A stretch of 21,124 nucleotides of DNA from positions 1 through 21,124 of IMG/VR virus record IMGVR_UViG_3300025736_000251. One strand, written 5' to 3'. This document shows, piece by piece, positions 7,986-21,124 of the stretch. How positions within the stretch are numbered: position 1 is the stretch's first letter; every line of letters starts with the position of its first letter. This DNA is from a virus. The notes beneath the pieces are model-generated. The model was not told the origin of the DNA and did not search any database. It saw nothing but the letters and a program-made list of their open reading frames with translations. The position numbers and the translations under genes were made by a program.

Positions 7986-8018
7986 TAAAAATTTGAAGGG
8001 AAGTGTGTTATTATAGCA
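7986..8018 (+). promoter_or_regulatory. Capsid gene leader, copy 1 of a duplicated ribosome-binding leader
   Basis: TAAAAATTTGAA followed by GGGAAGTG, TGTTATT and ATAGCA. It matches the leader at 9290-9321 except for one substitution in the Shine-Dalgarno, one indel in the spacer and the last base of ATA/ATC. It decides the capsid start: GTG triplets here (8003 and 8005) are out of frame. Confidence 0.8.
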
Positions 8019-8897
8019 AACACAATTGCATACGCAAAGGCTTATAAAGAGAAGTTAGACCAAGTTTACAAATTGGGTGCTTCAACAGCAATATTAGAAG
8101 CGGCTGAAAGTTCTTACAAGTTTAATTCTGAAAATGCACAGGAAATTCTATTGCAGAAGTTATCAATTCAGGGACTAGGAACTTATGCAAGAGATACTGG
8201 TTACCTAGCTGGTAATGCAGATATAACTTGGGAGACACATACATTTGGTCAGGATAGAGGTAGAAAATTCCTTCTTGATACAATGGATGCTAAAGAAGCA
8301 AAATTACAGGTTGGAAGACTTATGGCTGAAATGATGAGGGTTAATATTATACCTGAGATTGATGCTTATAGATTTTCTAAAATGTTCACTCTATGTGGTG
8401 CTGATGTTGCGGCTGATTTAACAGTTGATAATGTTGTTGCTGCTATTGATACAGGTATTGAAACTTTAGATAATGCAGAAGTAGGACAGGAAAATAGAGT
8501 TCTGTTTGTATCAAACGGAGTAAACAATCTATTGAAAAATTCAGGTGAATACTTCTCTACTAGAATTACACATGACAATATGGTTACGAAAATTAACAGG
8601 AAGATAACAATGCTTGACGACCTTCCTATGATTAGAGTACCATCGGCTAGATTTAATTCAGCTTACACTTTCAATGCGGCTGGTGCAGGTGGGTTTACAG
8701 CTACAGGTGATGCTCTGAATTTCATGATTGTTCCTTTAACTGATGTTATAGCAGTTATAAGACACATGGAGCCAAAACTTGTTGACCCTAAATACAATAC
8801 TGATGCTGACGGTTGGGTATTTGCTTCAAGATTATACCATGACCTATTCATTCCAGATAACAAGCTAGATGGAGTGTATATTCATAAAGTAGCGTAA
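8013..8897 (+). CDS. Major capsid protein (HK97-fold), apparent ATA start
   Basis: A 294-residue coat protein if started at ATA 8013. The N-terminus then reads MANTIAYAKAYKEKLDQVYK, typical of this coat family, which argues strongly that translation starts here and not at the in-frame TTG 8073 (no ribosome binding site there; it would remove 20 family-like residues). The frame opens after a TAA at 7986 and has no ATG, GTG or TTG before 8073; ATT (8010) is the only other near-start codon. GAAGGGAAGTG lies 7 bases upstream of ATA. Conserved-looking regions are the ADITWETHTFGQDRGRKFLL segment (E-loop/N-arm side), KLQVGRLMAEMMRVNIIPEIDAYRF (spine helix) and the DDLPMIRVPSARF P-domain part. It follows the scaffold and begins the capsid-decoration island. 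Identity is confident; start codon less so. Confidence 0.88.
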   Translation: MANTIAYAKAYKEKLDQVYKLGASTAILEAAESSYKFNSENAQEILLQKLSIQGLGTYARDTGYLAGNADITWETHTFGQDRGRKFLLDTMDAKEAKLQVGRLMAEMMRVNIIPEIDAYRFSKMFTLCGADVAADLTVDNVVAAIDTGIETLDNAEVGQENRVLFVSNGVNNLLKNSGEYFSTRITHDNMVTKINRKITMLDDLPMIRVPSARFNSAYTFNAAGAGGFTATGDALNFMIVPLTDVIAVIRHMEPKLVDPKYNTDADGWVFASRLYHDLFIPDNKLDGVYIHKVA

Positions 8898-8965
8898 TAA
8901 GGGCGTTTGAGGTTATTTTTGTAGCTTGATTGATTAATACCCCTAGAGTAACCATAACGCAGGAA

Positions 8966-9082
8966 ATGAAAAACGATGTGAAGAATGGTACGACATTTAG
9001 GTTATTTAAGACTAAATATAATCATCACCAAACTGTATGGACAAGGATTAAAAAAACTTGTATGAAGGCAGGTAATGATTAA
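8966..9082 (+). CDS. Possible 38-residue basic peptide in the gap after the capsid gene
   Basis: ATG 8966 to TAA 9080-9082. The peptide (MKNDVKNGTTFRLFKTKYNH then HQTVWTRIKKTCMKAGND) is rich in Lys/Arg and could bind nucleic acid. An AGGAA lies only one base upstream of the ATG, too close for good initiation. It could equally be a remnant of a lost gene or chance. No family recognised. Confidence 0.25.
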   Translation: MKNDVKNGTTFRLFKTKYNHHQTVWTRIKKTCMKAGND

Positions 9083-9121
9083 CGATTATTAACATATGTG
9101 TATAAAAGTAGTAGAGGACGG

Positions 9122-9185
9122 TTAAAATAAAATACTGGATTTAATATTGGTGAAGCAGGGTATTAAAGAACCAGTAAAGTTTTAA
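9122..9185 (+). ncRNA. Three-tier stem-loop, possible structured RNA element
   Basis: Three nested inverted repeats are collinear: TTAAAA 9122-9127 with TTTTAA 9180-9185; TACTGG 9133-9138 with CCAGTA 9171-9176; TTTAATA 9140-9146 with TATTAAA 9161-9167. All 19 pairs are Watson-Crick, with small asymmetric internal loops and a 14-base terminal loop. The nesting is more than I would expect from AT-richness alone, but no thermodynamic or covariation test was possible. Confidence 0.4.
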
Positions 9186-9203
9186 TTAAAGCCACACCAA
9201 GGC

Positions 9204-9291
9204 TAGTCCTTTATAACACCTTAACGATGTAGCAATGTAACACTGTAATTTAATAGAAAGAGAATATAAATAGGACTATAATAAAGTCCTA
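9204..9291 (+). promoter_or_regulatory. Mutually exclusive pairings before the heptad-repeat gene
   Basis: TAGGACT (9271-9277) can pair locally with AGTCCTA (9285-9291), forming a 7 bp hairpin that ends about 11 bases before the AAAGGAAG ribosome binding site. The overlapping AGGACTA (9272-9278) can instead pair with TAGTCCT (9204-9210). The two folds exclude each other, the layout expected of a translational switch. A TATAAT (9277-9282) with weak -35 TAGAAA (9254-9259) overlaps the same bases, so a promoter is an alternative reading. Confidence 0.35.
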
Positions 9292-9321
9292 AAAATTTGA
9301 AAGGAAGTGTTTATTATCGCA
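9290..9321 (+). promoter_or_regulatory. Heptad-repeat gene leader, copy 2 of the duplicated leader
   Basis: TAAAAATTTGAA, AGGAAGTG, TTTATT and ATCGCA. It is nearly identical to the major capsid leader at 7986-8018 and gives the same ribosome binding site, spacing within one base and an Ala second codon. It suggests the two products are expressed in matched amounts. Confidence 0.8.
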
Positions 9322-10104
9322 TTCACATTAAAAGGAAAGTTAGATAGTATTGGTGATGGTTTATCCACAGTTGATAGTGTAGCAGTTGTAATGGAAAGTT
9401 CCGCTGAGTCTTTAGCTAGTACAGCGGTAATACTTGAAAGTACAGCAGATATAATTGATAGTTCAGCTACAATTATTGAGTCAGTGGCTGGTGATATGTC
9501 AGGAGTACCAGACCAAGTAGATAGTGTTGGTGTTTCTGTGGAAGCAAATGATGTATTGATTGACTCAGTGGGAGCACAGGCAACTTCACAGGCAGTTCTT
9601 GGTAGTACTTATAGTTCTACTGCTACTGCTAATGTTGCAAGTGTAGGTTTACTTGACTCAGCATTATTGGTTCAGGTAGATAGTGTAGGAACTGTAGCAG
9701 TAGCTAATGATGCACTAGTTGATAGTGTTGGTACTAAAACTGCTTCTGTAGGAGCATTAGTAGCCGCAAATGACGCTCTGATTGATAGTATTGGTTTATT
9801 GGATAGTGCTATTATAGTTAAGGCAGATAGTAATGGACTCTTAAATTCAGGTATTTTAGTTAGTTCCGATAGTGTAGGAGACCAAGCTGACTCACTAGGA
9901 TTACTTGAGAGTGGTATTTTAGTAAGTGCAGACTCAAATGGTGGAGCAGTTGATAGTGTTGGTGTTTTAGATAGCACAGTTATTGTAAACGTGGACTCAG
10001 TTGGTGTACTTGCAGGTGCAGGTGCAACAGGTACAGCTTTATCTGGTGCATTATCTAGCCTTATGTCTAAACTAGAAGTTATTGATGAACAGGTTGCACC
10101 ATAA
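9316..10104 (+). CDS. Heptad-repeat virion protein, probable head fibre/decoration, apparent ATC start
   Basis: About 262 residues if started at ATC 9316 (MAFTLKGKLDSI...). GTG 9307 is in frame but lies inside the AAAGGAAGTG Shine-Dalgarno, and in the duplicated capsid leader the equivalent GTG is out of frame. Nearly the whole protein is a 7-residue repeat, with blocks such as DSVGTVA, VANDALV, DSVGTKT, DSIGLLD, SAIIVKA, DSNGLLN, SGILVSS and DSVGVLD. Early heptads read ESTADII and DSSATII. It is rich in Ser, Asp, Val and Ala and has almost no Lys/Arg after residue 12. Strict heptads suggest a parallel oligomeric rod; phi29 head fibre gp8.5 is a functional analogue, not a claimed homologue. 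The position after the capsid gene and the shared leader support a capsid-bound fibre. The non-repeat C-terminus (SGALSSLMSKLEVIDEQVAP) may be the attachment or trimer tip. Confidence 0.75.
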   Translation: MAFTLKGKLDSIGDGLSTVDSVAVVMESSAESLASTAVILESTADIIDSSATIIESVAGDMSGVPDQVDSVGVSVEANDVLIDSVGAQATSQAVLGSTYSSTATANVASVGLLDSALLVQVDSVGTVAVANDALVDSVGTKTASVGALVAANDALIDSIGLLDSAIIVKADSNGLLNSGILVSSDSVGDQADSLGLLESGILVSADSNGGAVDSVGVLDSTVIVNVDSVGVLAGAGATGTALSGALSSLMSKLEVIDEQVAP

Positions 10105-10116
10105 GGGAGGTAGCTG

Positions 10117-10278
10117 ATGGGAATATCTAAAGAGGTTCAAGATGTAGAAAGAAATACAGAAGAAATAATATTACATAGTTCAACAGGATCAAGATGGTTA
10201 GGCAGTACAGCTGGTAATAGTCCTGCACTTTTGGGAAGTATTACACCTTGGGTTATTGTTAGTGGGGGGGAACGATAA
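10117..10278 (+). CDS. Small 53-residue protein of the decoration island
   Basis: ATG 10117 follows AAGGGAGG (10103-10110) with a short spacer; stop TAA is at 10276-10278. The N-terminus is a charged helix (SKEVQDVERNTEEIILH), followed by a Ser/Gly/Trp-rich segment (SSTGSRWLGSTAGNSPALLG) and a beta-like end with a run of seven G bases (10264-10270). Its stop overlaps the next gene's apparent ATA start. A short helix plus a Gly/Ser beta segment would suit a fibre anchor or chaperone, but no family is recognised and this is inference from position. Confidence 0.6.
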   Translation: MGISKEVQDVERNTEEIILHSSTGSRWLGSTAGNSPALLGSITPWVIVSGGER

Positions 10279-10655
10279 ATACTTATGGTACCGCTAAAGA
10301 AATGTTTAATGGGGCAGAGGTTTATGCCTACCCTTACGTCCCTACAAAAATACACATTCATAAATTGTTAATAGTAACTACAAGCAAAGACGAAATTTTA
10401 TGGAAACTCCAATTTGCTAATTCTTTTTATGACGGTGAAAATCATACTTATGCTAATATGGCAGATGCAGTTGCAGCAGGAAAATATACAACAGCAATGA
10501 TTAATTTTGAGAATAAAAAATCTAATACTGTAAGTTTAGATTTTCAGGGTGGGAAAATAAGTGTAGGAAGTAAGTTGTGGTGTAGATGTTTAAATGATGA
10601 TGCTACAGAATCCACTATTAGTATTTTAGTAGGGGCACATGGATATTTAGTGTAA
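10275..10655 (+). CDS. Unknown beta-rich virion-type protein, apparent ATA start overlapping a stop (ATAA)
   Basis: The frame is open from 10263, after a TAG. ATA 10275 gives MNTYGTAKEMFNGAEVYAYP and a 126-residue protein. It overlaps the upstream stop as ATAA, mirroring the usual ATGA coupling, and follows the run of G bases at a good distance. The first ATG (10302) has only AAAGA two bases upstream and would remove nine residues. The sequence alternates beta strands (KIHIHKLLIVTTS, ILWKLQFANSFYD, TVSLDFQGGKISVG) and ends in STISILVGAHGYLV, like a compact beta-sandwich. A decoration or fibre-knob role is inferred from the neighbours; no family recognised. Confidence 0.65.
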   Translation: MNTYGTAKEMFNGAEVYAYPYVPTKIHIHKLLIVTTSKDEILWKLQFANSFYDGENHTYANMADAVAAGKYTTAMINFENKKSNTVSLDFQGGKISVGSKLWCRCLNDDATESTISILVGAHGYLV

Positions 10656-10678
10656 TTTAAAAAAGAAGGAGTTTATAT

Positions 10679-10861
10679 ATGATGTATGGGTGTGGTAGGA
10701 AACAAAAAGATTTACGCTATGATAATATACACGAAAAAGTTATAGGGCATAGTGGTGATAATCTTAGTTGTATAAGTTCACAACATGATAAGAGCGATAT
10801 AAACAAAGTGATAAGATTAACAAATGTTAATACAGTGATAGGTGGTGGTGTTTATGTGTAA
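10679..10861 (+). CDS. Small 60-residue protein, unknown
   Basis: Starts at the double ATG 10679/10682 after AAGAAGGAG (10662-10670), a strong site. The protein is polar, with three Cys/His-containing patches (MMYGCGRKQK, HEKVIGHSGDNLSCISSQHD), but their spacing is not a recognisable zinc finger. It ends in a GGGVYV stretch that overlaps the glycosyltransferase start by 8 bases, so the two are probably coupled. That coupling is the only clue: it may act with the glycosyltransferase or be one of its targets. Confidence 0.55.
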   Translation: MMYGCGRKQKDLRYDNIHEKVIGHSGDNLSCISSQHDKSDINKVIRLTNVNTVIGGGVYV

Positions 10862-11930
10862 ACCTTTAAACATTGCCCACGTAAGTCCTTTTGCTGTAAA
10901 TCGGTGTGGCTTATATGAAAGTGCCAGAGATATGGCAAGAGCAGATACTTTAGGTGGCAATCATGTTTCTTTCATAGATGCAGGAGTAGCCACTAAAACT
11001 AAACGTGAAGTACCTGTCATTGGTGGAAGTGATGATAGAGCAGGATTTAATATAGTTACTGGTAACCCTAAAGTATTGGATAGTGCAGATATAATAATCA
11101 TGCACACTGGTTTTAATGACTCTTATTTAGTTAAAAATCAGGCTCCTCTTTTGTGGGTAGTACACGGAAGACCTTTAGCTTGTTTCAGACCAGAGAGAAT
11201 GAAATCAGGACAAGCGTACTCTTTATATAACACTGTGAGTAATTGGCCTAGGACTAAAGGTATGTTATATTTTTGGCCTGAATTTAAAACTCATTGGGAA
11301 GGTGTACTTCATGGAAAAGATATTGTTTTAGACTATCCAGTAATTGATGAACTAAGATTTAGATGTTTAGAAAATACACAAGTGTTAAAGAAAAAGGGTG
11401 ATATAAATATACTTGTGTGTGACTCTGAAAGAGAAGATGTTGACCTGTACGAAATGGTAGTTGGTTTAGTAGAAGCGGCGAAAAAATATCAGGGTTTAAA
11501 AATCCACTTTTACGGAATGGATATACCAGATGGCAAACTCGCTAATTGCCATAATATATTACTCGGAAAATTAAAAGCAGTAGGGGCATTAGGTGACGTG
11601 TCAGGTAGAATAGGTGATATGGAAAAAGTATATAATTCAGTTGATTGTGTAATGTCACCTAACCGAATTATAACAAGGACTATAGGTGAAGCTTTATCTT
11701 GTGGAGTTCCTGTCATAAGTCAGAATAATAGTATGAACTTACTATCAGACTATACTTGTGACATGGCTGAACCCAAAGATATTGTAGAAGCCATAGGGTT
11801 ATTTATTAATGATAAGAACAATGGTTTAATTAACAAACGTGTAATAACAGATAGGGCACAAGTCTTTTCACTGAAAAATTACAGTGATAAGATGAATGAG
11901 GTATATAGAAAAATCATAGAGGGACGGTGA
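10854..11930 (+). CDS. GT4-like glycosyltransferase in the virion gene block
   Basis: A 358-residue GT-B fold enzyme expected to transfer sugar from a nucleotide-sugar donor. I chose ATG 10854 with AGGTGGTGG just upstream over the GTG run at 10842-10850, which overlaps that site. The N-terminal half begins NIAHVSPFAVNRCGLYESAR, the acceptor-domain first strand and Gly loop typical of GT4. LWVVHGRP is a mid-domain strand. The C-terminal donor domain shows INILVCDSE, a KIHFYGMDIPD strand, VYNSVDCVMSPN and the diagnostic RTIGEALSCGVPVIS, with E279 in the position of the GT4 nucleotide-sugar glutamate. The first E of the EX7E motif is not obvious. No signal or membrane segment, so it is cytoplasmic. 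Setting between virion genes suggests it modifies capsid or fibre proteins; DNA or host glycan modification are alternatives. Confidence 0.85.
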   Translation: MCKPLNIAHVSPFAVNRCGLYESARDMARADTLGGNHVSFIDAGVATKTKREVPVIGGSDDRAGFNIVTGNPKVLDSADIIIMHTGFNDSYLVKNQAPLLWVVHGRPLACFRPERMKSGQAYSLYNTVSNWPRTKGMLYFWPEFKTHWEGVLHGKDIVLDYPVIDELRFRCLENTQVLKKKGDINILVCDSEREDVDLYEMVVGLVEAAKKYQGLKIHFYGMDIPDGKLANCHNILLGKLKAVGALGDVSGRIGDMEKVYNSVDCVMSPNRIITRTIGEALSCGVPVISQNNSMNLLSDYTCDMAEPKDIVEAIGLFINDKNNGLINKRVITDRAQVFSLKNYSDKMNEVYRKIIEGR

Positions 11931-12220
11931 TACAATTGAGCAATATTATTATTGAGTCCTTAAAGAAACTAAGTAATAATTCAGAAGCAAATGTTGGGAC
12001 TTTAGGCGGTATTTATGAAGCTGGTACAGGAGCAGTCACACCAGCTACAGGTTATGTTTTCAATAAAATTGAAGTAATAACAGAAGCACAAATTACACTA
12101 GTTGGTAATATAACAGGTATCACAGCCGTTACATTCCCTGTAGGTACAGTTATTCAAGGTAAGTACACAAGTCTTACAGTGGCAAGTGGAACAGTTATGG
12201 CTTATTACGGTTATGTGTAA
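11927..12220 (+). CDS. Small beta-rich protein, possible head or connector accessory
   Basis: GTG 11927 overlaps the glycosyltransferase stop (GTGA), typical of coupling, with AGAGGGA just upstream; TTG 11936 is an alternative start that fits GGACGGTG spacing better. The 97-residue product has an N-terminal helix (SNIIIESLKKLSNN) and a C-terminal beta domain (ATGYVFNKIEVITEAQITLV, FPVGTVIQGKYTSLTVASGT) ending in MAYYGYV. The motif pGTvIxGxftsltvasGxvmAYxG recurs in small phage proteins near head-tail genes, usually unnamed. A structural accessory role is likely; nothing more specific can be claimed. Confidence 0.65.
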   Translation: MIQLSNIIIESLKKLSNNSEANVGTLGGIYEAGTGAVTPATGYVFNKIEVITEAQITLVGNITGITAVTFPVGTVIQGKYTSLTVASGTVMAYYGYV

Positions 12221-12260
12221 ATTTATACACAATCTTATAATAGAATGAGGGTGACTATAT

Positions 12261-12593
12261 ATGATGCGAGTTGTAGATAATTCAGCAGAATTTCTTTCCA
12301 AACTTAAAGCGAATAATCTTGATACTTTAGAAGCTATAGGAAAATTCAGTAAGGGGGTAATGGATGATAATGTTGCTGTAGATACTGGACTCCTAAAGAG
12401 TAATAATGATTATGTAGTTAGTCAAGATGAAGTACAAATGTCCAATAGTACTGAGTATGCACTACACCAAGAGTACGGAACTTCTAAGATGAAAGCACAC
12501 CCTTTTATGAAGCCAGCCGCTTTAAATCATACAGGGGATTTGGCAAGAATAGCGGCTGAACAATTAGGTAAGGGTATGAAGGGTAAGGGGTGA
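12261..12593 (+). CDS. HK97 gp10-family head-tail component
   Basis: A 110-residue protein starting at the double ATG 12261/12264 after GAGGGTG. It has the family pattern of HK97 gp10 (PF04883): an N-terminal helix (EFLSKLKANN), VDTGLLKSNNDYVV, a STEYALHQEYGTSKMKAHPF block and the MKPAALNH ending with a C-terminal helix. Members act at the head-tail interface during tail completion. It is followed after 4 bases by the next tail-completion gene, the usual pairing. Confidence 0.88.
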   Translation: MMRVVDNSAEFLSKLKANNLDTLEAIGKFSKGVMDDNVAVDTGLLKSNNDYVVSQDEVQMSNSTEYALHQEYGTSKMKAHPFMKPAALNHTGDLARIAAEQLGKGMKGKG

Positions 12594-12597
12594 TAGT

Positions 12598-12981
12598 GTG
12601 GAGATAGATAAATTAAAATATTATATCGCTCAAAGATTAACAAGTTTGACTTCTATAAATGTGTATAATGAAAAAGTACCTGATGGTGCAACTTATCCTT
12701 ATTTAGTATTTAAATTTCCTGCAAACAGTACTGTAGTCAGGCATAGGAAAGATTGGATTTTAGAGATAGATTATTGGTCTAATTCTTATGATGACACAGA
12801 CATATTACAGGCAGCCATTTATGTTAAATCAGGGACAGACAGTATTGTGGGTTTAGATAGCTCAACTCAATGTGAAACAGAAGGTTTTTATTACTGTAAT
12901 GTTGATTTTGAAGGTGAAATTCCCACAGACGAGTCTAATATGTCTAGGTATAACCAGAGATTTTTAATTAAAGTAGATTAA
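12598..12981 (+). CDS. Tail completion / terminator-type protein (DUF3168-like)
   Basis: A 127-residue protein starting at GTG 12598 with AAGGGGTG upstream. Features match tail terminator-like proteins next to gp10: IDKLKYYIAQRLTSLTSINV, then VPDGATYPYLVFKFP, which is the conserved P-x-x-x-x-YPY-V-F strand; a central DWILEIDYWSNSYDDTDI and a C-terminal beta strand (NQRFLIKVD). These proteins cap the tail tube and join it to the connector. Directly upstream of the tail-tube genes, as expected. Family assignment rests on pattern and position. Confidence 0.75.
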   Translation: MEIDKLKYYIAQRLTSLTSINVYNEKVPDGATYPYLVFKFPANSTVVRHRKDWILEIDYWSNSYDDTDILQAAIYVKSGTDSIVGLDSSTQCETEGFYYCNVDFEGEIPTDESNMSRYNQRFLIKVD

Positions 12982-12999
12982 AAGAAAGGAAGTGATTTT

Positions 13000-14106
13000 A
13001 TGTCAATCGTAGCAGTAACACCAACAATGCCAGTAGCTAATGACATTATTTTAGGTGAATTTAAGTGTTATGCAAACTATGGTCTGCCTACACAAATCCT
13101 TTTGGGTGCAACTAGGGATGGTTGTAAGGTTGATATTGAAAGAACTATCAAGGAGCTAACTTTTGATGGAGCATATGGTCCAACTTTAGATAGTGATGGT
13201 GTTCCTTTAGTAAGATATGAAAAGTTCATGGCAAAAATTACACTAAATAATTTATATTTAAAATATTTCACAAAGAAAACAATTTCAAATTGTGAAACTT
13301 CTGATACAGGGTGGAAGTCTAAAAACTGGGCAGAAGATGGTAATGGTGTGTACGTAGCTGAAACAACTATAGTCAATAGTGGTAACCAATCAGCAAAAAT
13401 TACAATTGCTACTGCTTCAACTGGTTTAGGTGTGAAGAATGTATTCACAGCTACAAAAGACCTTACTGCTTTTGATAATTCAGAAGTATCAGATACAGCA
13501 GATGCTATAGGTTTTGCAATATATATCACTACTCAGGATTTAACCGATTTGGGTACGGATAAGATAAGAATAACTTTTCATTGTGATGCTGATGAAACAG
13601 AAACAAATCATTATTTCTATGAAATTGCTGCAGCAGATTTAACAGCAGATGTATGGACTACATTTAAAGTGTTGAAGTCAGCATTTACAGAGGGTGGTTC
13701 TGGTGATTGGTCAACAATAACAGGTTTCTGTATTGAAGTCCCAACTGAAACTGATGCTGAACTTATATTTTATTTTGACAGTATTGATTTAATTCAGACT
13801 CATAGTGATAGCTCACCAATAGGTATCAACGGTTCTGGATTTGATTACACTGATGAAACAACATATAAAGAGTTCACAGCAAGTCTTGAAATTCCTGATA
13901 CAGACTATCTTGAAAATGTTACTTTAGTTGGTCAGAGAATGGATGGAAAAATGGTGAAGATTGTTTTAAAAAATCCATTGAATGATGGGAATATTTCATT
14001 GGCACTTGAGGATAAAGATGAAGTTGTAAATGAAACACAATTTACTTCTCACTTTAAATATGATGCTGGTTTAACGATTCCCGTTGAACTTTTTGAGTAT
14101 GTTTAA
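13000..14106 (+). CDS. Tail tube protein A with inserted carbohydrate-binding-like domain
   Basis: A 368-residue protein, ATG 13000 after AAAGGAAGTG. Residues 1-90 and about 287-368 align with the next gene: DIILGEFKCYANYG with DILLGEGVLYVDYG, GATRDGCKVDIERTIKE with GATRGGSKVEIERVIKE, and LALEDKDEVVNETQF with LEFKEKDEVISERTY. That is a typical tail-tube core. Between them, residues 93-270 form an extra domain: ISNCETSDTGW start, SGNQSAKITIA, a Trp-containing FKVLKSAF strand and a closing IFYFDSIDLIQ, the pattern of a CBM jelly-roll. It would project from the tail surface and could bind cell-surface sugars. The fold is inferred from strand pattern; no sugar-binding residues are assigned. Confidence 0.8.
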   Translation: MSIVAVTPTMPVANDIILGEFKCYANYGLPTQILLGATRDGCKVDIERTIKELTFDGAYGPTLDSDGVPLVRYEKFMAKITLNNLYLKYFTKKTISNCETSDTGWKSKNWAEDGNGVYVAETTIVNSGNQSAKITIATASTGLGVKNVFTATKDLTAFDNSEVSDTADAIGFAIYITTQDLTDLGTDKIRITFHCDADETETNHYFYEIAAADLTADVWTTFKVLKSAFTEGGSGDWSTITGFCIEVPTETDAELIFYFDSIDLIQTHSDSSPIGINGSGFDYTDETTYKEFTASLEIPDTDYLENVTLVGQRMDGKMVKIVLKNPLNDGNISLALEDKDEVVNETQFTSHFKYDAGLTIPVELFEYV

Positions 14107-14132
14107 TATGTATAAGGAAGGAGTGATTTGAA

Positions 14133-14690
14133 ATGGGCGTAAATACATTCACACCAGCCGTACCACAATCTGCAAAAGATATTTTGTTGGGCGAAGGTGT
14201 TCTATATGTTGATTACGGTGAAGTTGGTGAAGCTGTAATTGGTGCAACCAGAGGTGGTTCTAAAGTAGAAATTGAAAGAGTTATAAAGGAAGTTGCCTAT
14301 GATGGTTCTATGGGTGCAACAAAAGGAATGAGAAGGACAGAAAGATTTGTAGTAAAAATGATAATCAATTTCTTAAAGCTTACTTATACTAATTTCGTGT
14401 ACGGTTTAAATGCAACTGTAACTGATGGTGCAGACCAAGACGGAACTTATAAGAAGATTACATTCAATACTACTTTTGCCAGTACAGATTTATTGACGAA
14501 CATCACCTTTAAAGGGTACAAAGCAAATGGTAAGTATTGCATAATTACCATTGGTAATGCACTAGATATAGGTAATATAGGTTTGGAATTTAAAGAGAAG
14601 GACGAAGTTATTAGTGAGAGGACATATACTGGATTTTATACTTATGCCGCTCCTGTGACTCCTCCTTTAGCAATTCAGGAAGAAGTTTAA
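14133..14690 (+). CDS. Tail tube protein B (paralogue without insert)
   Basis: A 185-residue protein, ATG 14133 after AAGGAAGGAG. It is the compact counterpart of the preceding gene, with only a short NFVYGLNATVTDGADQD loop where the neighbour carries about 180 residues. Size and fold pattern match siphovirus major tail proteins that stack as hexameric rings around the tape measure. Either this is the main tube subunit and the upstream paralogue a minor decorated form, or they alternate. It is followed by a weak hairpin and the tail assembly chaperone, the usual order. Confidence 0.85.
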   Translation: MGVNTFTPAVPQSAKDILLGEGVLYVDYGEVGEAVIGATRGGSKVEIERVIKEVAYDGSMGATKGMRRTERFVVKMIINFLKLTYTNFVYGLNATVTDGADQDGTYKKITFNTTFASTDLLTNITFKGYKANGKYCIITIGNALDIGNIGLEFKEKDEVISERTYTGFYTYAAPVTPPLAIQEEV

Positions 14691-14695
14691 GTGAT

Positions 14696-14722
14696 GGGGT
14701 GTAATGCCCCTAACTTTCTTTT
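14696..14722 (+). terminator. Weak terminator-like hairpin after the tail tube genes
   Basis: GGGGT (14696-14700) pairs with GCCCC (14706-14710) around a 5-base loop, followed by TAACTTTCTTTT. The stem is short and the T-run is interrupted, so partial termination that lowers chaperone expression relative to tail tube is the most that can be proposed. Confidence 0.4.
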
Positions 14723-14777
14723 GTGAGCTAGAAAAGTCCTTGGAGAAAGGCAAATTTAAAAGATGAGGTGTTTTATT

Positions 14778-15167
14778 GTGGAGAAGAGAAAACTTAAAAA
14801 GAAAGAGATTATGATTGTGTCGAGAATTTTAGAAGATGTGAACTTTAAATACTATGTTGAGTATTTACTGTCCAATAAAGTGGATAAGATTTTAAAGGCC
14901 AGTAATGATAAGAATGAAAAAATCATGATGATTATGGGTGATGTATTTGCATTTGTGATACAGAACATTCATAAGGCAGAAGAAAATATTGATGCATTGT
15001 GTATTTCTTATTGTGGTCTTACTCAAGAACAAGTTGACGAGATGGAAGAAGACGATTATATTGAAACCTTAAAAACCGTATTCATGGCTGGCGTACCAAA
15101 GGTTATCGCTAGCTATGTTGATTTAGCAGAGGTTAAAAAAAAGTTTCAATCAGTGACAAAGAGTTAA
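14778..15167 (+). CDS. Tail assembly chaperone, short form (gpG-like)
   Basis: A 129-residue protein started at GTG 14778, seven bases after GAGGTG (14765-14770); an ATG at 14763 lies within that site. The sequence is helical and acidic (LEDVNFKYYVEYLLSNKVDK, GLTQEQVDEMEEDDYIETLK), matching chaperones encoded between tail tube and tape measure. Near its end the frame reads GTT AAA AAA AAG TTT, containing the A AAA AAG slippery heptamer (15137-15143). The product with a TAA stop at 15165 is the short form; slipping gives the long form. Confidence 0.85.
   Translation: MEKRKLKKKEIMIVSRILEDVNFKYYVEYLLSNKVDKILKASNDKNEKIMMIMGDVFAFVIQNIHKAEENIDALCISYCGLTQEQVDEMEEDDYIETLKTVFMAGVPKVIASYVDLAEVKKKFQSVTKS
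15137..15143 (+). promoter_or_regulatory. Programmed -1 ribosomal frameshift site A AAA AAG
   Basis: An eight-A run (15135-15142) followed by G gives the canonical heptamer A AAA AAG in the chaperone frame. A stop (TAA 15134-15136) in the -1 frame lies immediately before it, and the -1 frame is open from there to 15577. Such sites are conserved in siphovirus tail chaperones (lambda gpG/gpGT). Confidence 0.9.
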
Positions 15168-15577
15168 CAGATAGAGAAGTCCTTATAGGGATTGTTAAAA
15201 ATTATGAATTTATACAAGTATTCTTCACAGATGTTAATATTATAGAACCGTTAATTGGCTACTATAAAGATTTCAGCTATGTTGAATACATTTTGGACCT
15301 ACCTTTCGAGCGTGGGTTCAAGTTGTATTTAAAGTGTATTGATAACATAAAACAGGAACTTGAAAAGGAAGTCAAAGACCATGTTAGACAAATTTGGTTA
15401 ATAGAAATTCAGAATGGATACAAAGGAGATTTTGAAAAGTATTACAAATCTAAAGTGTCAGTTTCAAATGACAGGTCCTTGGGAAAAGATATGAGGGACT
15501 CCGAAGAAAAAAGAATAATTAACGATGTGACAAATAAGGACAATATTAAATTACAAGAAAGGAAAGTGGTAGCATGA
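15143..15577 (+). CDS. Tail assembly chaperone, -1 frameshift extension (gpT-like part of gpGT)
   Basis: Read from 15143 after the slip, the frame continues VSISDKELTDREVLIGIVKN and stays open for 144 residues to TGA 15575-15577. No ATG, GTG or TTG with a ribosome binding site starts it; the first candidate (TTG 15293) would discard a third of the frame. The fusion with the upstream chaperone would be about 266 residues. The segment contains aromatic-rich VEYILDLPFERGFKLYLK, a helical QELEKEVKDHVRQIWLIE and a charged C-terminus, as in gpT-type extensions that recruit tail-tube subunits to the gpG-coated tape measure. Its stop overlaps the next gene as ATGA. Confidence 0.88.
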   Translation, partial: VSISDKELTDREVLIGIVKNYEFIQVFFTDVNIIEPLIGYYKDFSYVEYILDLPFERGFKLYLKCIDNIKQELEKEVKDHVRQIWLIEIQNGYKGDFEKYYKSKVSVSNDRSLGKDMRDSEEKRIINDVTNKDNIKLQERKVVA

Positions 15578-16173
15578 TTGTGACAAGAGCGGAAGTTATG
15601 ACATTATTACAGATAGCTGACATAGACTACAATACTTTTATTGATATGAATATCCCTATTGCAGAACAAGCAGTGTGTAGTTATTGTAATAGTGACTTCA
15701 TTGACAAAAACTTTGATTACTTTTCTTCAAATGCAGTAAGCTTCGCAAACAGTACGAATAGTATTAACTTAACTGACATTGGAAATAAGAAAATAGTCGT
15801 CAACGACACCCTAAGAATTTATCGTTCGTTAAGAAATAACCAAACCTTCACTGTAAGTAGTGTTGCAACAGATAGCATTATTTTAAATGCAATAGATACT
15901 GTTACAGATGAAGATGCAGGAGAGGGAGTATTTGTTGCAAAAGTTAGGTACCCTGTACCTTTAAAATTTGTGGTAGCTAAAATGATTAAGTATGCTTTAT
16001 CTATTTCAGATATAGATTTTAATATCAAGTCGGAAAAGATTGATGATTACTCTGTAACATTTGTTGATAATGTATTTGGCTATCCTCAAAGTATTATGTC
16101 CCACCTAAATGCTTATAGACAAGTTTACAAGATAGATTTGTTTAATAACAGTAGGAGTGGAGGGTGTGTATAA
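15574..16173 (+). CDS. Probable head-tail connector/adaptor (gp6/YqbG-like)
   Basis: A 199-residue protein, ATG 15574 overlapping the chaperone stop, ribosome binding site AAAGGAAAG. It opens with a helical segment (AEVMTLLQIADIDYNTFIDM and NIPIAEQAVCSYCNSDF), then a beta insert (VNDTLRIYRSLRNNQTFTVS), and closes with a helix bundle (PLKFVVAKMIKYALS, SIMSHLNAYRQVYKIDLF). This helix-beta-helix pattern fits Phage_connect/gp6-type adaptors that dock on the portal. Unusually it lies after the tail chaperone; a baseplate or tail role is the main alternative. Confidence 0.6.
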   Translation: MIVTRAEVMTLLQIADIDYNTFIDMNIPIAEQAVCSYCNSDFIDKNFDYFSSNAVSFANSTNSINLTDIGNKKIVVNDTLRIYRSLRNNQTFTVSSVATDSIILNAIDTVTDEDAGEGVFVAKVRYPVPLKFVVAKMIKYALSISDIDFNIKSEKIDDYSVTFVDNVFGYPQSIMSHLNAYRQVYKIDLFNNSRSGGCV

Positions 16174-16503
16174 ATGGGTATTGATAAATATTTTATCGCT
16201 TGTACTAGGGTTAGACCTACAACAACTTTAAATACAAGTCTAAGACCAATTGTAACATATGTTAATACTAGTATAAGAGGTTATATAGCCAGTGGAAATA
16301 GCAACGAAAGATATGTGGCAGGTAAAGATACTATTGAGTCAGAGTTAAAGTTCTACTGTGATGATTTTAGTTTACTGATTAACGACTTGATAATTTATGA
16401 GAGTAAAACATATGAAGTAAATAGTGAGCCTAAAAATACTGCACATAAAAACAGTCACATTAAAGTAGCACTCAGAAAAGTAGATGATATAAAACAACAG
16501 TAA
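16174..16503 (+). CDS. Probable head closure/stopper-type protein
   Basis: A 109-residue protein, ATG 16174 directly after the previous stop, with GGAGGGTG upstream. It begins MGIDKYFIACTRVRPTTTLN and contains RGYIASGNSNERYVAGKDTI, then ESELKFYCDDF and the IYESKTYEVNSEPKNTAHKN strand pair with a final VALRKVDD strand. That small beta-barrel pattern with an internal loop fits head closure (SPP1 gp16-like/YqbH) proteins, which follow the adaptor. The pairing with the previous gene supports both calls; neither is certain. Confidence 0.6.
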   Translation: MGIDKYFIACTRVRPTTTLNTSLRPIVTYVNTSIRGYIASGNSNERYVAGKDTIESELKFYCDDFSLLINDLIIYESKTYEVNSEPKNTAHKNSHIKVALRKVDDIKQQ

Positions 16504-16521
16504 GGAAGGTGGTGCTAGGGT

Positions 16522-19500
16522 ATGCAAATTGCTGAGTTATTTTATAGTGTTAGAGGTGAGGGTTTTGATAAGTTATCAGGCCAAATTAAAAGTGTAGGCA
16601 GTGGTTTTTCAGCCGTAGGTTCAACACTTACTAATAAGGTAACAAAACCCATCATGGGTGTTGCATCTTCAATTATAGATACCACAATGACCTTTGATAA
16701 ACAAATGTCTAAGGTATCTTCCGTGACAGGTGCTACAGGTAAAGATTTTACAGCACTTAGAGAAAAAGCTATAGAGATGGGTTCAGGAACTTCAAAAACT
16801 GCAACAGAAGCGGCAGAAGCTATTGAGTATATGGGTTTGGCTGGTTGGGATTTAGAAAGGATTAATGAAAGTTTAGAGCCTGTCTTGAGAGCAAGTGAAG
16901 CAGGAGCTATGGATCTTGGTTTGACTTCTGATTTGGTGACCGATAGTATGTCTGCTTTAGGTTTAGAGCAAGGAGACCTCACAAAGTATTTAGACATAGG
17001 TGCAAATGCTCAGAATAATTCCAATCAATCAATGCAACAATTTTTAGAAGCAATGGTTATAGCTGGTGGTACTTTTAAGATGTTTAATGTACCTTTGGAA
17101 GAAGCAGGTGCATTGTTAGGTATATTAGCAAATAGGGGTTTCAAAGGTAAAGAAGCAGGAACGGCTTTGACTTCTGTAATGGCTAATTTAACTAGTGGGA
17201 CAGGTCAAGCTGGAAAGGCAATGGGAGATTTAGGAATAGAGGTCTATGATGGAAATGGTAAATTCCGTGGAATGACAACTATTCTAAAAGAGTTGAACGG
17301 AAAGTTTGACGGAATGACAGAAGCACAAAGAAATACTTATATTCAGATGATAGGTGGTAAGACAAGAACCAAAGAATTAAATGCTTTATTGAATGGTACT
17401 TCTGAGGAGTTAGATGATTTAACTGATACCTTACATGACTCAGACGGTGCCTTAAATAAAATGGCTCAGACAATGCAAGATAATCTTGCAGGACAAGTAA
17501 CTAAACTTAAAAGTAAACTGGAAGGTATAGCTATACAAATTGGGGATAGACTCACACCCTATATAAGAATAGCGGCTGATGTTGTACAGGCTTTAGCTGA
17601 TGCTTTTTACGCACTACCTACACCTATAAAAGATATTATAATAATAGGTGCTTTATTAGTTGCCGCAATTGGTCCAATTTTATTGGTCATAGGGGGTACT
17701 ATAACAGCAGTTGGTATGTTAGTAGGTGCAATAGGTACACTGGGAACGGTAATTACTACTGTGGGGTTGCCTGTTATTGCTACCATTGCAGGGATAGCCG
17801 CAGGAATAGTAATATGGACAACAGCTATAACCTTAGTTGTAGCCAAACTAGGAATATTTAAAGATGCTTTGGCTTCTTTAAAAGCAATAATTTCTGGTGA
17901 TGTTCAAACAATGTTTAATTTGTTACATAAAAACTTCGGTATGTCTGCGAAAGATGCTGGTATATGGTCTGAAAGATTTGGGGAAATAGCAGACAAAGCA
18001 AAGATTGTAGCAAAAGTTATTACAGATAATTTATCTATTGCAATGGGTATATTAGGGCAAGCCATTGGTACTTTAATGTCAGGAGGAATGGCAGACTTAA
18101 ACTCAGGTACACAAGAGAGTAAGAATATGTTTATGGGTATGGTTACAGGTATCATAAAATGGGGTGGGGAGTTAATTGACTACCTCTATAAAATGCTTGA
18201 TGCCTTTGGTCTAATACCTACAGCCTTAAAGTTCAGTAACAATGAAATAGCAGGTCAGTATATAGAATTGAGAGCTACAACAGATAATCATTTCCAAGAT
18301 TTAATGACTGCTCAACTTATGTTTAATGGCGAATTTACAGAGGCTAATCTTGCAGGTTACGCAAAAAAACTTGCTGATACTAAAACTGCAATGGATGCAG
18401 AATTAGCATTAGTACTGGAACAACTTAACATACGAAAAGAAAGAGAAATTGCAGGTCTTACAGAACTTTTTGCAAATAGTCAGGCATTGTCACAAGAAAA
18501 TGAAGCTGTAAAACTAGAAAGTTTAAAAGCTTATTATGTTCAAGAGGAAGAAGGATTAAGAACAAATCTTGCTAGACAGAAAGAAATACTTACTGTAGCT
18601 TTTGCAGAAAAACGAAACTTAACAGCCAATGAAAATGCTGAGTTAACTTTTCTGAGAGAGTCAGCAGGTGCAAGACAGCTTACATATATAGCTACAAGTT
18701 CAGCAGAACAAACAAGAATATTAGAGGAAACAAAGAACCTTACAATAAAAATTAGTAAAGAACAAGCAATGGGACTTATAACAGAAGCTAACAGAGCGTA
18801 TGATGGAGTAGTTAAAAAAGCAACAGAAAAGAAAAATAAAATTATTCAAGAAGCTATAACTCAAAGGGACGAAACAGGAATTCTTTCGGCAGAAGAAGCG
18901 GCTAATATTATTAAAGAAGCAAAATGGCAGTATTCAATGACAACAGGTTATGCAGAAGATACAAAGAATGAAACAATTAATGCGGCAGAAATGGGTTCTA
19001 AAGGTGTCATAACGGCAAAAGAAAAAGAAGCCAGAGATGTAGAGACACAGGCTCAAAAAATAGAGAAGGTATTAATACAAATATGGAATGACATAAAGGG
19101 AAAAATACCTGGGATTGTTAAAGAGATGGGTAAGGATATAGTAACTTACATTGAGGATAATAAACCAGCTATAGTAGCCGCGGCTTTAAGAGTAGGTAAA
19201 GCTTTAGTGCAAGGTATAATAGATGGAATTGGTTCATTGATGGGTTCTCTTGCGGCTAAAGTAGCTAGTGCTTTAACTCTAGCGGCAAGGGCACAAAGTG
19301 CGGCTACACAACCTGCAACTACAGGAAGACCTTCAGGCAGGGCAGGAATATATAGTGGTAAACAGTATGCTGACGGAGTAACCAATGCCCATGGTGGATG
19401 GGCTATGGTAGGAGAACAAGGCCCCGAATTAATGTATGTACCTAAAGGCTCTGATATTTACAGTAACCCTGAAACAAGAGGTATGATGAATAGCACTCCA

Positions 19501-19635
19501 AATATAGGTGGGGGACAGGGTGTATCAGGTATGAATATGTATGGTGATGTAATAATTGATGCTCATAATGTACAAGATTTCACTGATGTAGTAGCTGTAC
19601 TAAAAGGTATAAAGAGAGAGAAAAGTATGAGATAA
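16522..19635 (+). CDS. Tail tape measure protein (TP901 core)
   Basis: A 1037-residue protein, ATG 16522 after AAGGAAGGTGG. The N-terminal part is the TP901-type core: FDKQMSKVSSVTGATGKDFT, then LREKAIEMGSGTSKTATEAAE and EYMGLAGWD, and KLKSKLEGIAIQIGDRLTPY ending the core near residue 345. A hydrophobic block (about residues 370-440) has several possible membrane segments, as in tape measures that insert in the host membrane at DNA entry. A long coiled coil with alanine/glutamate repeats covers about 610-850. The C-terminus carries GGWAMVGEQGPELMYVPKG (near 958-976), a conserved tape-measure ending. By the usual rule of about 1.5 angstrom per residue, the tail would be roughly 150 nm. No lytic transglycosylase domain is obvious. 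Confidence 0.94.
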   Translation: MQIAELFYSVRGEGFDKLSGQIKSVGSGFSAVGSTLTNKVTKPIMGVASSIIDTTMTFDKQMSKVSSVTGATGKDFTALREKAIEMGSGTSKTATEAAEAIEYMGLAGWDLERINESLEPVLRASEAGAMDLGLTSDLVTDSMSALGLEQGDLTKYLDIGANAQNNSNQSMQQFLEAMVIAGGTFKMFNVPLEEAGALLGILANRGFKGKEAGTALTSVMANLTSGTGQAGKAMGDLGIEVYDGNGKFRGMTTILKELNGKFDGMTEAQRNTYIQMIGGKTRTKELNALLNGTSEELDDLTDTLHDSDGALNKMAQTMQDNLAGQVTKLKSKLEGIAIQIGDRLTPYIRIAADVVQALADAFYALPTPIKDIIIIGALLVAAIGPILLVIGGTITAVGMLVGAIGTLGTVITTVGLPVIATIAGIAAGIVIWTTAITLVVAKLGIFKDALASLKAIISGDVQTMFNLLHKNFGMSAKDAGIWSERFGEIADKAKIVAKVITDNLSIAMGILGQAIGTLMSGGMADLNSGTQESKNMFMGMVTGIIKWGGELIDYLYKMLDAFGLIPTALKFSNNEIAGQYIELRATTDNHFQDLMTAQLMFNGEFTEANLAGYAKKLADTKTAMDAELALVLEQLNIRKEREIAGLTELFANSQALSQENEAVKLESLKAYYVQEEEGLRTNLARQKEILTVAFAEKRNLTANENAELTFLRESAGARQLTYIATSSAEQTRILEETKNLTIKISKEQAMGLITEANRAYDGVVKKATEKKNKIIQEAITQRDETGILSAEEAANIIKEAKWQYSMTTGYAEDTKNETINAAEMGSKGVITAKEKEARDVETQAQKIEKVLIQIWNDIKGKIPGIVKEMGKDIVTYIEDNKPAIVAAALRVGKALVQGIIDGIGSLMGSLAAKVASALTLAARAQSAATQPATTGRPSGRAGIYSGKQYADGVTNAHGGWAMVGEQGPELMYVPKGSDIYSNPETRGMMNSTPNIGGGQGVSGMNMYGDVIIDAHNVQDFTDVVAVLKGIKREKSMR

Positions 19636-19725
19636 TATAAGTGCCTTAACAGAATGATAATTAACAATGTTACAATACACGATATGGTAATTAACAATGT
19701 TACAATTAACAGAATGATAATGAAT
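19636..19725 (+). repeat. Six tandem 15-base degenerate repeats directly after the tape measure stop
   Basis: Consecutive 15-base units start at 19636, 19651, 19666, 19681, 19696 and 19711, most ending TTAAC. Units 2 and 6 (AGAATGATAATTAAC, AGAATGATAATGAAT) and units 3 and 5 (AATGTTACAATACAC, AATGTTACAATTAAC) are near copies. The period is five codons and stays in frame with the tape measure, giving RMIIN NVTIH DMVIN NVTIN RMIMN before TAA 19726. No ribosome binding site precedes it, so independent translation is unlikely. Confidence 0.75.
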
Positions 19726-19765
19726 TAAAGAAAGGAATGATAAAGGTAGGGGAAAAAACCAGTTT

Positions 19766-19959
19766 TTGAGTAATGAAAAACATTTGAAAGTTAAACTAAC
19801 AAACAGACAAGTAACTGAAATTAGGAAAAACAAGAAAATGGTGCTAAACAAAAAGAACTTTCTAATCTTTATGGTGTTGACCAATCGTGTATATCACGCA
19901 TTGTAAACTATAAAAGACGTGAAAGTCAAGAAGGGAGTGGGTTACCATACCTTGGGTGA
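19766..19959 (+). pseudogene. Frameshifted helix-turn-helix protein remnant
   Basis: Two frames together encode a small DNA-binding domain. The first (frame of TTG 19766 or 19784) reads KHLKVKLTNRQVTEIRKN; the second, shifted -1 near AGGAAAAAC (19823-19831), continues QENGAKQKELSNLYGVDQSC then ISRIVNYKRR to TGA 19957-19959. The join gives a K-LT-x-x-QV-x-EIRK...GAKQKELSNLYGVDQSCISRI unit of the kind found alone or at the C-terminus of phage HNH homing endonucleases. One extra A in the A-run would restore the frame. It is either decayed, a homopolymer sequencing error, or a frameshift product. The end overlaps the next gene's leader. Confidence 0.6.
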
Positions 19960-21124
19960 ATAGTAACGCAGGTGGTGGAGGAAATTTAGAGTTCTATAGT
20001 TCCAGACAATGTGCTTCGGAAATTACATTACCTTCTGCCTGTGCTGTAACAAAATTACGAGCTAGTTTAGGGTCAGTTTGGGGATGGGGAAATTTAGTAA
20101 GGTTAGCAATATGGCAAGTATCTGGAGCTACTATTGAACAAACTTCAACTTTTGATGTAACTTCTTCAATGCTTACCTATGAAGAGTCAATTACTTCCAC
20201 CGTTTTAGCCGCAGGTAATTATTGGGTGGGGCCTTATTGGAGTGCTATAGGTATAAAGGTAGGTGTAGGCACTACAGGTAACGGAACTTATTATAAACTT
20301 AATAATGCAACTTACCCTTCAATTGTAACAATGGCTGACTATTTAGGTTCTTCACATAATGATATGGAAGTGGGTATGTTTTACATAACTGCACCCATAG
20401 TTGTGACAGATTGTGTTGCAACCAGAGTATCAGACAATAATATATCCTTAGCTTGGACTAATAGTGCTTCTACAGACCAGCCTATAGATTATTACGCAGT
20501 GTGGAGATGGGACTCCATAAATGGGTGGTATCGTATAGACGGAGGTACTGTAGCAGGTGATTTAAGTAGTTACTCTGACACAACTACAATTGCTAATATG
20601 CAGTATAAGTACATAGTTGAACCGCGTAATGATGCAGGTTATGGTGTTAGTTCAACATCAAATACCATAAATACTACACCTGCTGCACCTTCAAGTATAG
20701 TAGCAACTAGACTTGGTGTTACAGTAGGTATTACATGGGTTGATAATGCAATAAATGAAGATAATTATGAGATTGAAAAAAATGAGTCAACAGATGAAGG
20801 TGTAACATGGGAAGGTTGGACAGTAGATTTATTACCTGACCAAGCCGCAGATATTATAAGTTACACAGATACAAGTCCATATGTTTATGGTAAGTACAGA
20901 ATTAGAGCAATAGAAAATACAGGTAGTTTAACTAGTGCATGGGTTGAAAGTAACGATGTAATAACAATAGCTTCTCCAAGTGCTCCAACAGGAATGGTGC
21001 CAGATAGCATAGCCTACGATGCTGTGGGTGCTTATACTTTTCAGTGGACTCATAATCCCGTAGATGGTACTGCACAAACTAAATATTCATTACAATATCG
21101 TGTAGTTGGTGCGGCATGGCCAGG
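19947..21124 (+). CDS. Fibronectin-III tail fibre / baseplate protein, 3' end outside window, apparent ATA start
   Basis: Open from 19923 to the window edge. ATA 19947 lies 7 bases after AAGGGAGTG and gives MPWVNSNAGGGGNLEFYSSR; the next candidate, GTG 19956, is 16 bases from the site. At least 392 residues are visible. The first 150 residues are a beta-sandwich resembling carbohydrate-binding or collar domains (QCASEITLPSACAVTKLRAS, LVRLAIWQVSGATIEQTS, GNYWVGPYWS). Fibronectin type III-like domains follow: VATRVSDNNISLAWTN with YYAVWRWD and YKYIVEPRNDAGYG; IVATRLGVTVGITWVDNAIN with YRIRAIENTGS; then MVPDSIAYDAVGAYTFQWTH with YSLQYRVVG. FnIII arrays are common in phage fibres. Placed after the tape measure where Dit/Tal genes are usual, it may replace or precede them. 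Confidence 0.78.
   Translation, partial: MPWVNSNAGGGGNLEFYSSRQCASEITLPSACAVTKLRASLGSVWGWGNLVRLAIWQVSGATIEQTSTFDVTSSMLTYEESITSTVLAAGNYWVGPYWSAIGIKVGVGTTGNGTYYKLNNATYPSIVTMADYLGSSHNDMEVGMFYITAPIVVTDCVATRVSDNNISLAWTNSASTDQPIDYYAVWRWDSINGWYRIDGGTVAGDLSSYSDTTTIANMQYKYIVEPRNDAGYGVSSTSNTINTTPAAPSSIVATRLGVTVGITWVDNAINEDNYEIEKNESTDEGVTWEGWTVDLLPDQAADIISYTDTSPYVYGKYRIRAIENTGSLTSAWVESNDVITIASPSAPTGMVPDSIAYDAVGAYTFQWTHNPVDGTAQTKYSLQYRVVGAAWP

Follow-up and report, generated by a model that had tools for sequence, protein, structure and literature searches.

The window, by which we mean the whole stretch of DNA analysed here (21,124 bases; virus record IMGVR_UViG_3300025736_000251; GC 34%), carries genes with which a tailed phage packages its DNA and builds its head and tail, including those for terminase, portal, scaffold and major head protein as well as tail genes. 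The named phages nearest to it at the capsid and terminase proteins are less than 41% identical, and a host search with capsid and terminase alignments over genome contigs found no relative. No tRNA or known RNA element was found within the 21,124-base window, and no IF3 gene was found in the nine relative records searched, which are mostly probable fragments. Among the 21 genes of the window, three are read here as starting at an ATH codon (ATA, ATC or ATT), two start at TTG and two at GTG; the leaders, start codons and genes of the four sites treated below lie on the plus strand. The scaffold gene most probably starts from TTG 7415, which has the Shine-Dalgarno (SD) sequence AAAGGTGG, rather than from ATG 7334, and relatives carry ATG or GTG in that column. 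A protein that by eye reads as glycosyltransferase-like is encoded at 10854-11930, amid the virion genes, and is conserved in relatives. At 15135-15167, where frames 14778-15167 and 15137-15577 overlap, there is an A8 run, an arrangement resembling the programmed frameshift known from tail assembly chaperone genes.

The major head (capsid) protein gene (8013-8897) encodes 294 aa when Met is placed at ATA, and its product matches the PHROG 422 major head protein (E 4e-78), with residues 2-293 aligned to positions 2-293 of the 297-position profile. For each gene of the window we read off the codon that relatives carry in the aligned start column; for the capsid gene (8013-8015) this is ATG in 11 relative contigs (L004-L011 and L018-L020) and ATA in the window, L002 and L003. 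The leader (7986-8012) consists of the block TAAAAATTTGAAGGGAAGTGT, which includes the SD (GAAGGGAAGTG), followed by TGTTATT, and from the in-frame stop TAA 7986 the frame reads AAA TTT GAA GGG AAG TGT GTT ATT ATA. There is not a single ATG, GTG or TTG in the frame between this upstream stop and codon 2 of the conserved N-terminus. The SD has a duplex energy of -12.6 and an aligned spacing of 5 to the ATA. The first canonical codon past the ATA is TTG 8073, 20 codons in and lacking an SD. Codons 2-20 differ from those of L004-L006 by seven synonymous changes and one replacement (Q to E), an excess with p ~4e-4 in a rough test that assumes 3/4 of random changes to be replacements. Because these changes are mostly synonymous, the codons following the ATA appear to be translated, and this, together with the alignment of the profile from residue 2 and the lack of an SD, argues that TTG 8073 is not the capsid start.

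Between the capsid gene and the next structural gene, at 8898-9290, a 38-aa ORF occupies the place of the Phage_min_cap2-like minor head gene of L006. The structural protein gene that follows (9316-10104; 262 aa) encodes DSVG repeats and matches nothing in PHROG or Pfam; its orthologues occupy the same position after the head genes. Its start column (9316-9318) is ATG in ten relative contigs and ATC in the window, L002 and L003. The leader (9290-9315) again comprises a block, TAAAAATTTGAAAGGAAGTGT, that contains the SD and is followed by TTATT, and the SD (duplex energy -12.9) has an aligned spacing of 4 to the ATC. GTG 9307 is in the frame of the repeat protein but forms part of the SD itself (aligned spacing -5), and the next canonical codon after the ATC is ATG 9391, 25 codons in. 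Relative to the orthologues, codons 2-25 show seven synonymous changes and four replacements (p ~0.008, rough and under the same 3/4-replacement assumption); being rich in synonymous changes, these codons too appear to be translated, and since ATG 9391 also has no SD, we conclude that the latter is not the start.

The third gene (19947-21124) runs past the end of the window and encodes a fibre-like virion protein that carries an Fn3-like domain; the fn3 match is weak in the window and significant in the relative L023. Both fibre relatives, L022 and L023, are 57% identical to the window protein and begin MPWAASNAGGG from an ATG in the same column as the ATA (19947-19949), which occurs in the window alone. 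The SD (AAGAAGGGAGTGGG) and spacer occupy 19930-19946, with a duplex energy of -13.7 and an aligned spacing of 5 to the ATA; GTG 19956 lies three codons after the ATA and 14 nt from the SD. With this GTG close by and only one contig carrying the ATA, the fibre is probably an ATA-started gene but the weakest of the three cases. Over 9 kb the window and contig 3300025697_000301 (L012/L023) are nearly identical, and then, at 19637-20378, they diverge into two fibre alleles with 57% protein identity, of which one begins at ATA and the other at ATG; these alleles are best read as the outcome of a recent fibre swap. Directly upstream of the fibre gene, at 19816-19959, is a helix-turn-helix or HNH-type remnant lacking a start codon, whose stop overlaps GTG 19956.

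The ATG genes of the window have SD duplex energies of -9 to -17 and spacings mostly of 2 to 6, and the three ATH sites fall within these values. RNA structure at the three starts shows no excess over shuffled sequences (z 0.09, -0.42 and -1.31). A 21-base block, TAAAAATTTGAARGGAAGTGT, is common to the capsid and repeat-protein leaders (7986-8006 and 9290-9310) and has no further copy in the window when up to three mismatches are allowed; in IMG/VR its 20-base core was found, besides the window, only in L002 and L003, and in relatives the SD core AAAGGAAGTGT is most of what the two leaders have in common. The shared leader block may place both genes under common control. Introns ending at the start codons were considered and dropped: the scaffold stop and the capsid ATA are just 31 bases apart, and Rfam gave no match.

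L002 and L003, which stem from other metagenomes, are 99.4-99.7% identical to the window, each with its own SNPs (23 and 39 substitutions, respectively). Because these substitutions are clustered at different places, the three sequences are not copies of one assembly, and because two further assemblies with distinct SNPs share the ATA and ATC, a sequencing error at 8013 or 9316 is unlikely. As the outgroups carry ATG, we take this codon to be the ancestral start of the capsid and repeat-protein genes; ATA in the one and ATC in the other arose by different substitutions, which implies at least two independent losses of G, and the fibre would be a third. About 12 starts could be compared with the sister lineage (L004-L006 and L015), which has ATG throughout, while the window lineage departs from it at five (scaffold TTG, capsid ATA, repeat protein ATC, g11936 TTG and g12598 GTG; one-sided sign test 0.03). 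These small numbers hint that start choice may be generally relaxed in the window lineage. A genetic code in which ATA is read as Met throughout, as in animal mitochondria, was rejected: internal ATA aligns with Ile 213 times and with Met 7 times, and internal ATC and ATT likewise align with Ile, so there is no recoding and the code is unchanged.

The original prediction placed ATH starts at four genes, and the codons stand where it put them (ATA 8013, ATC 9316, ATA 10275 and ATA 19947). An alignment that it proposed as a check, to see if relatives have ATG in the ATH column, bears it out at 8013, 9316 and 19947, each with a fitting SD. Its statement that no canonical start is well placed is correct for the capsid and also for 9316; at 19947 it needs the qualification that GTG 19956 is nearby, and both GTG alternatives it named, 9307 and 19956, have an unsuitable position with respect to the SD. 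The statement fails at 10275, where ATG 10117 had been overlooked and the supposed start belongs to a frameshifted gene.

That gene is a single one, beginning at ATG 10117 with the strong SD AAGGGAGG and split into two frames (10117-10655), the first of which closes at TAA 10276-10278, right after a G7 run (10264-10270) that causes the frameshift and is the sole G or C run of six or more in the window. The run is G7 in the window and L003, G6 in L012 and G5 in L002, and L002 has one uninterrupted ORF of 178 aa (L002:5094-5630). The orthologues in L006 and L015 (74-75% identical) are also continuous, with the frame unbroken at the 10275 site. ATA 10275 was therefore rejected as a start, because it lies in the second half of the 10117 gene, which the G-run splits and G5 restores to one frame; the good Shine-Dalgarno that had been seen before it is the G homopolymer. 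L012 starts shortly before the G-run, and across 5.4 kb it differs from the window by one SNP and the G-run. An ORF-internal homopolymer at 10117-10655 thus has different lengths in near-identical genomes, the gene being broken in three of four and full-length with G5 only, and the run would be either a phase-variable tract or a weakness of assembly. Phase-variable genes with poly-G tracts are known, for example, in Campylobacter; there, as here, the length of a G homopolymer inside an ORF sets the frame and varies between near-identical genomes, whereas the 10117 gene has just 5-7 G, is a phage gene and is known from assemblies alone (PMC7099621). A structure model of the 10117 protein (pLDDT 31) is too poor for use.

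We propose that the capsid (ATA), the repeat protein (ATC) and probably the fibre (ATA) initiate at a codon that replaced an ancestral ATG, with a probability of about 0.72. This would give one lineage a set of AUH-started late genes, two of them well supported and one probable. An ATT directly precedes the ATH codon in both the capsid (8010) and repeat-protein (9313) genes, and as E. coli infC and pcnB provide precedents for AUU starts, these two genes might instead initiate there, with ATA and ATC serving as second codons for Ile; initiation would then still be non-AUG, though from a codon with more precedent. However, the aligned SD spacing of the ATT codons is 2 and 1, against 5 and 4 for the ATH codons, the ATG of relatives sits in the ATH column while their -1 position is in some cases a stop or another codon, and the fibre start has no ATT upstream. 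Owing to the SD spacing and the column of the relatives' ATG, we favour ATH and consider initiation at ATT unlikely. It is less likely still that the ATH codons are sequencing or assembly errors, or that they mark defective genomes with no working start. The window is a contig assembled from a metagenome, one G-run in it does vary, and the artefact that the original prediction had allowed for is possible at 19947, where the ATA is known from a single contig; it is improbable at 8013 and 9316, where ATA and ATC are common to three assemblies with different SNPs, and the ATH genes are otherwise intact, their first codons differing from relatives mostly synonymously.

Use of canonical starts at GTG 9307, GTG 19956 and TTG 8073 would have the merit that all three are in frame, and GTG 19956 could be coupled to the upstream frame, which ends at TGA 19957-19959 (a GTGA overlap). 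The upstream frame itself lacks a start codon, though, and the GTG is too far from the SD to be well placed, GTG 9307 lies within the SD, and a start at TTG 8073 would lose 19 conserved residues, which makes this reading slightly more doubtful than an artefact. The least probable account, to which we give very little weight, is that the altered starts are a side effect of a homing endonuclease: a recognition site overlapping the start codon would have changed in the carrier lineage, and initiation would simply put up with the new codon. It draws on the helix-turn-helix remnant that adjoins the fibre start upstream and resembles phage HTH/HNH proteins (PHROG E ~4e-4), and on the short ORF upstream of 9316 at the position of the relatives' minor head gene. 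But the matches of the remnant are weak, the short ORF is unassigned, the capsid start has no such neighbour, and the idea covers the origin of the codons, not how translation starts.

In IMG/VR, a pattern of GGAG, 5-12 bases, ATH and 'ANTIA' gave 32 matches with zero capsid starts, and the identical pattern with ATG gave at least 120; 80 of these were examined, and in 55 the ORF was 200 aa or longer, many of the products being recognisable by eye as head proteins. Patterns with GGAG do not cover the GGGAAG-type SD of the window, and a closer pattern (AGGAAGTGT, ATH and a MAN-like start) yielded no plausible capsid among its 23 matches. A crude scan for an SD plus ATH flagged 6 of 1212 ORFs in the other contigs compared, too rough a result for a rate, and in the window it recovered the capsid only, at its ATT. 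No description of an AUA-started phage capsid gene was found in the literature searched, coverage of which was partial. Three AUH starts among 21 phage genes, the capsid included, is unusual.

In bacteria, AUH starts are known for few genes and are usually weak; E. coli infC, for example, starts at AUU. The AUU codons of E. coli and the phage codons are alike in being third-base near-cognate starts disfavoured by IF3, but AUU limits the expression of infC and pcnB, whereas the phage uses AUA and AUC for a product expected to be abundant. For pcnB, an AUU start is named in the title of a paper that PMC13009471 cites. In vitro, IF3 acts against weak third-base pairs (PMC10158994). Mapped starts in S. 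aureus include AUA in infC, ccpN and citZ and AUU in cvfC1, with extended SDs noted for infC, ccpN and cvfC1 (PMC13009471). The phage sites share with these an AUH codon at the initiation site, a properly spaced extended SD and a conserved frame. The S. aureus genes, however, are cellular and mostly encode regulators or factors, and the ccpN, citZ and cvfC1 reporters give ~10-30% of AUG output (PMC13009471), whereas the phage sites belong to virion genes including the capsid, number three in one genome and are known from sequence alone. Output at that level would be odd for a coat protein, which argues against an AUA capsid start. The well-annotated Bacillus siphovirus SPP1 is similar to the window phage in its virion-gene plan and in having SDs that fit a Gram-positive-like 16S tail, but 80/80 of its ORFs start at AUG (90%), GUG or UUG and none at AUH, as opposed to AUH at three genes here (PMC6316719).

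If the ATH codons are used, then by analogy with the known bacterial cases the ordinary host initiator tRNA would accept AUA or AUC via a third-position mismatch, and the extended SD would fix the position of initiation at the ATH codon. AUH initiation would then be efficient enough in the host for virion building, and host start-codon discrimination might be relaxed, perhaps through initiation factors or temperature. That a coat protein can afford an AUA start suggests efficient AUH initiation in the host, and we tentatively raise the possibility, though with doubt, that the host, or the phage during infection, has a relaxed start selection under which AUA and AUC are efficient even for the most abundant virion protein. 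Sample 3300025697, the source of one related contig, is tied by one paper to Antarctic Ace Lake, although the identifiers given there are inconsistent (PMC8116208); a cold setting for the phage is only a lead. Were start selection relaxed, the ATG of late genes could be free to drift, or the AUH codons could constitute a timing switch, with late genes favoured once initiation-factor discrimination falls.

If these starts are real, gene finders limited to ATG, GTG and TTG would shorten such proteins at the N-terminus without any warning. The column test applied in this analysis, which looks for a lineage with ATH where its relatives have ATG and for codons under selection downstream, could be extended to all viral genomes. 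The AUH starts known so far mark a small number of cellular genes that are weak by design. Their use by a phage for its coat protein and further late genes would suggest either that initiation follows other rules in the host or that late translation is timed in a novel manner.
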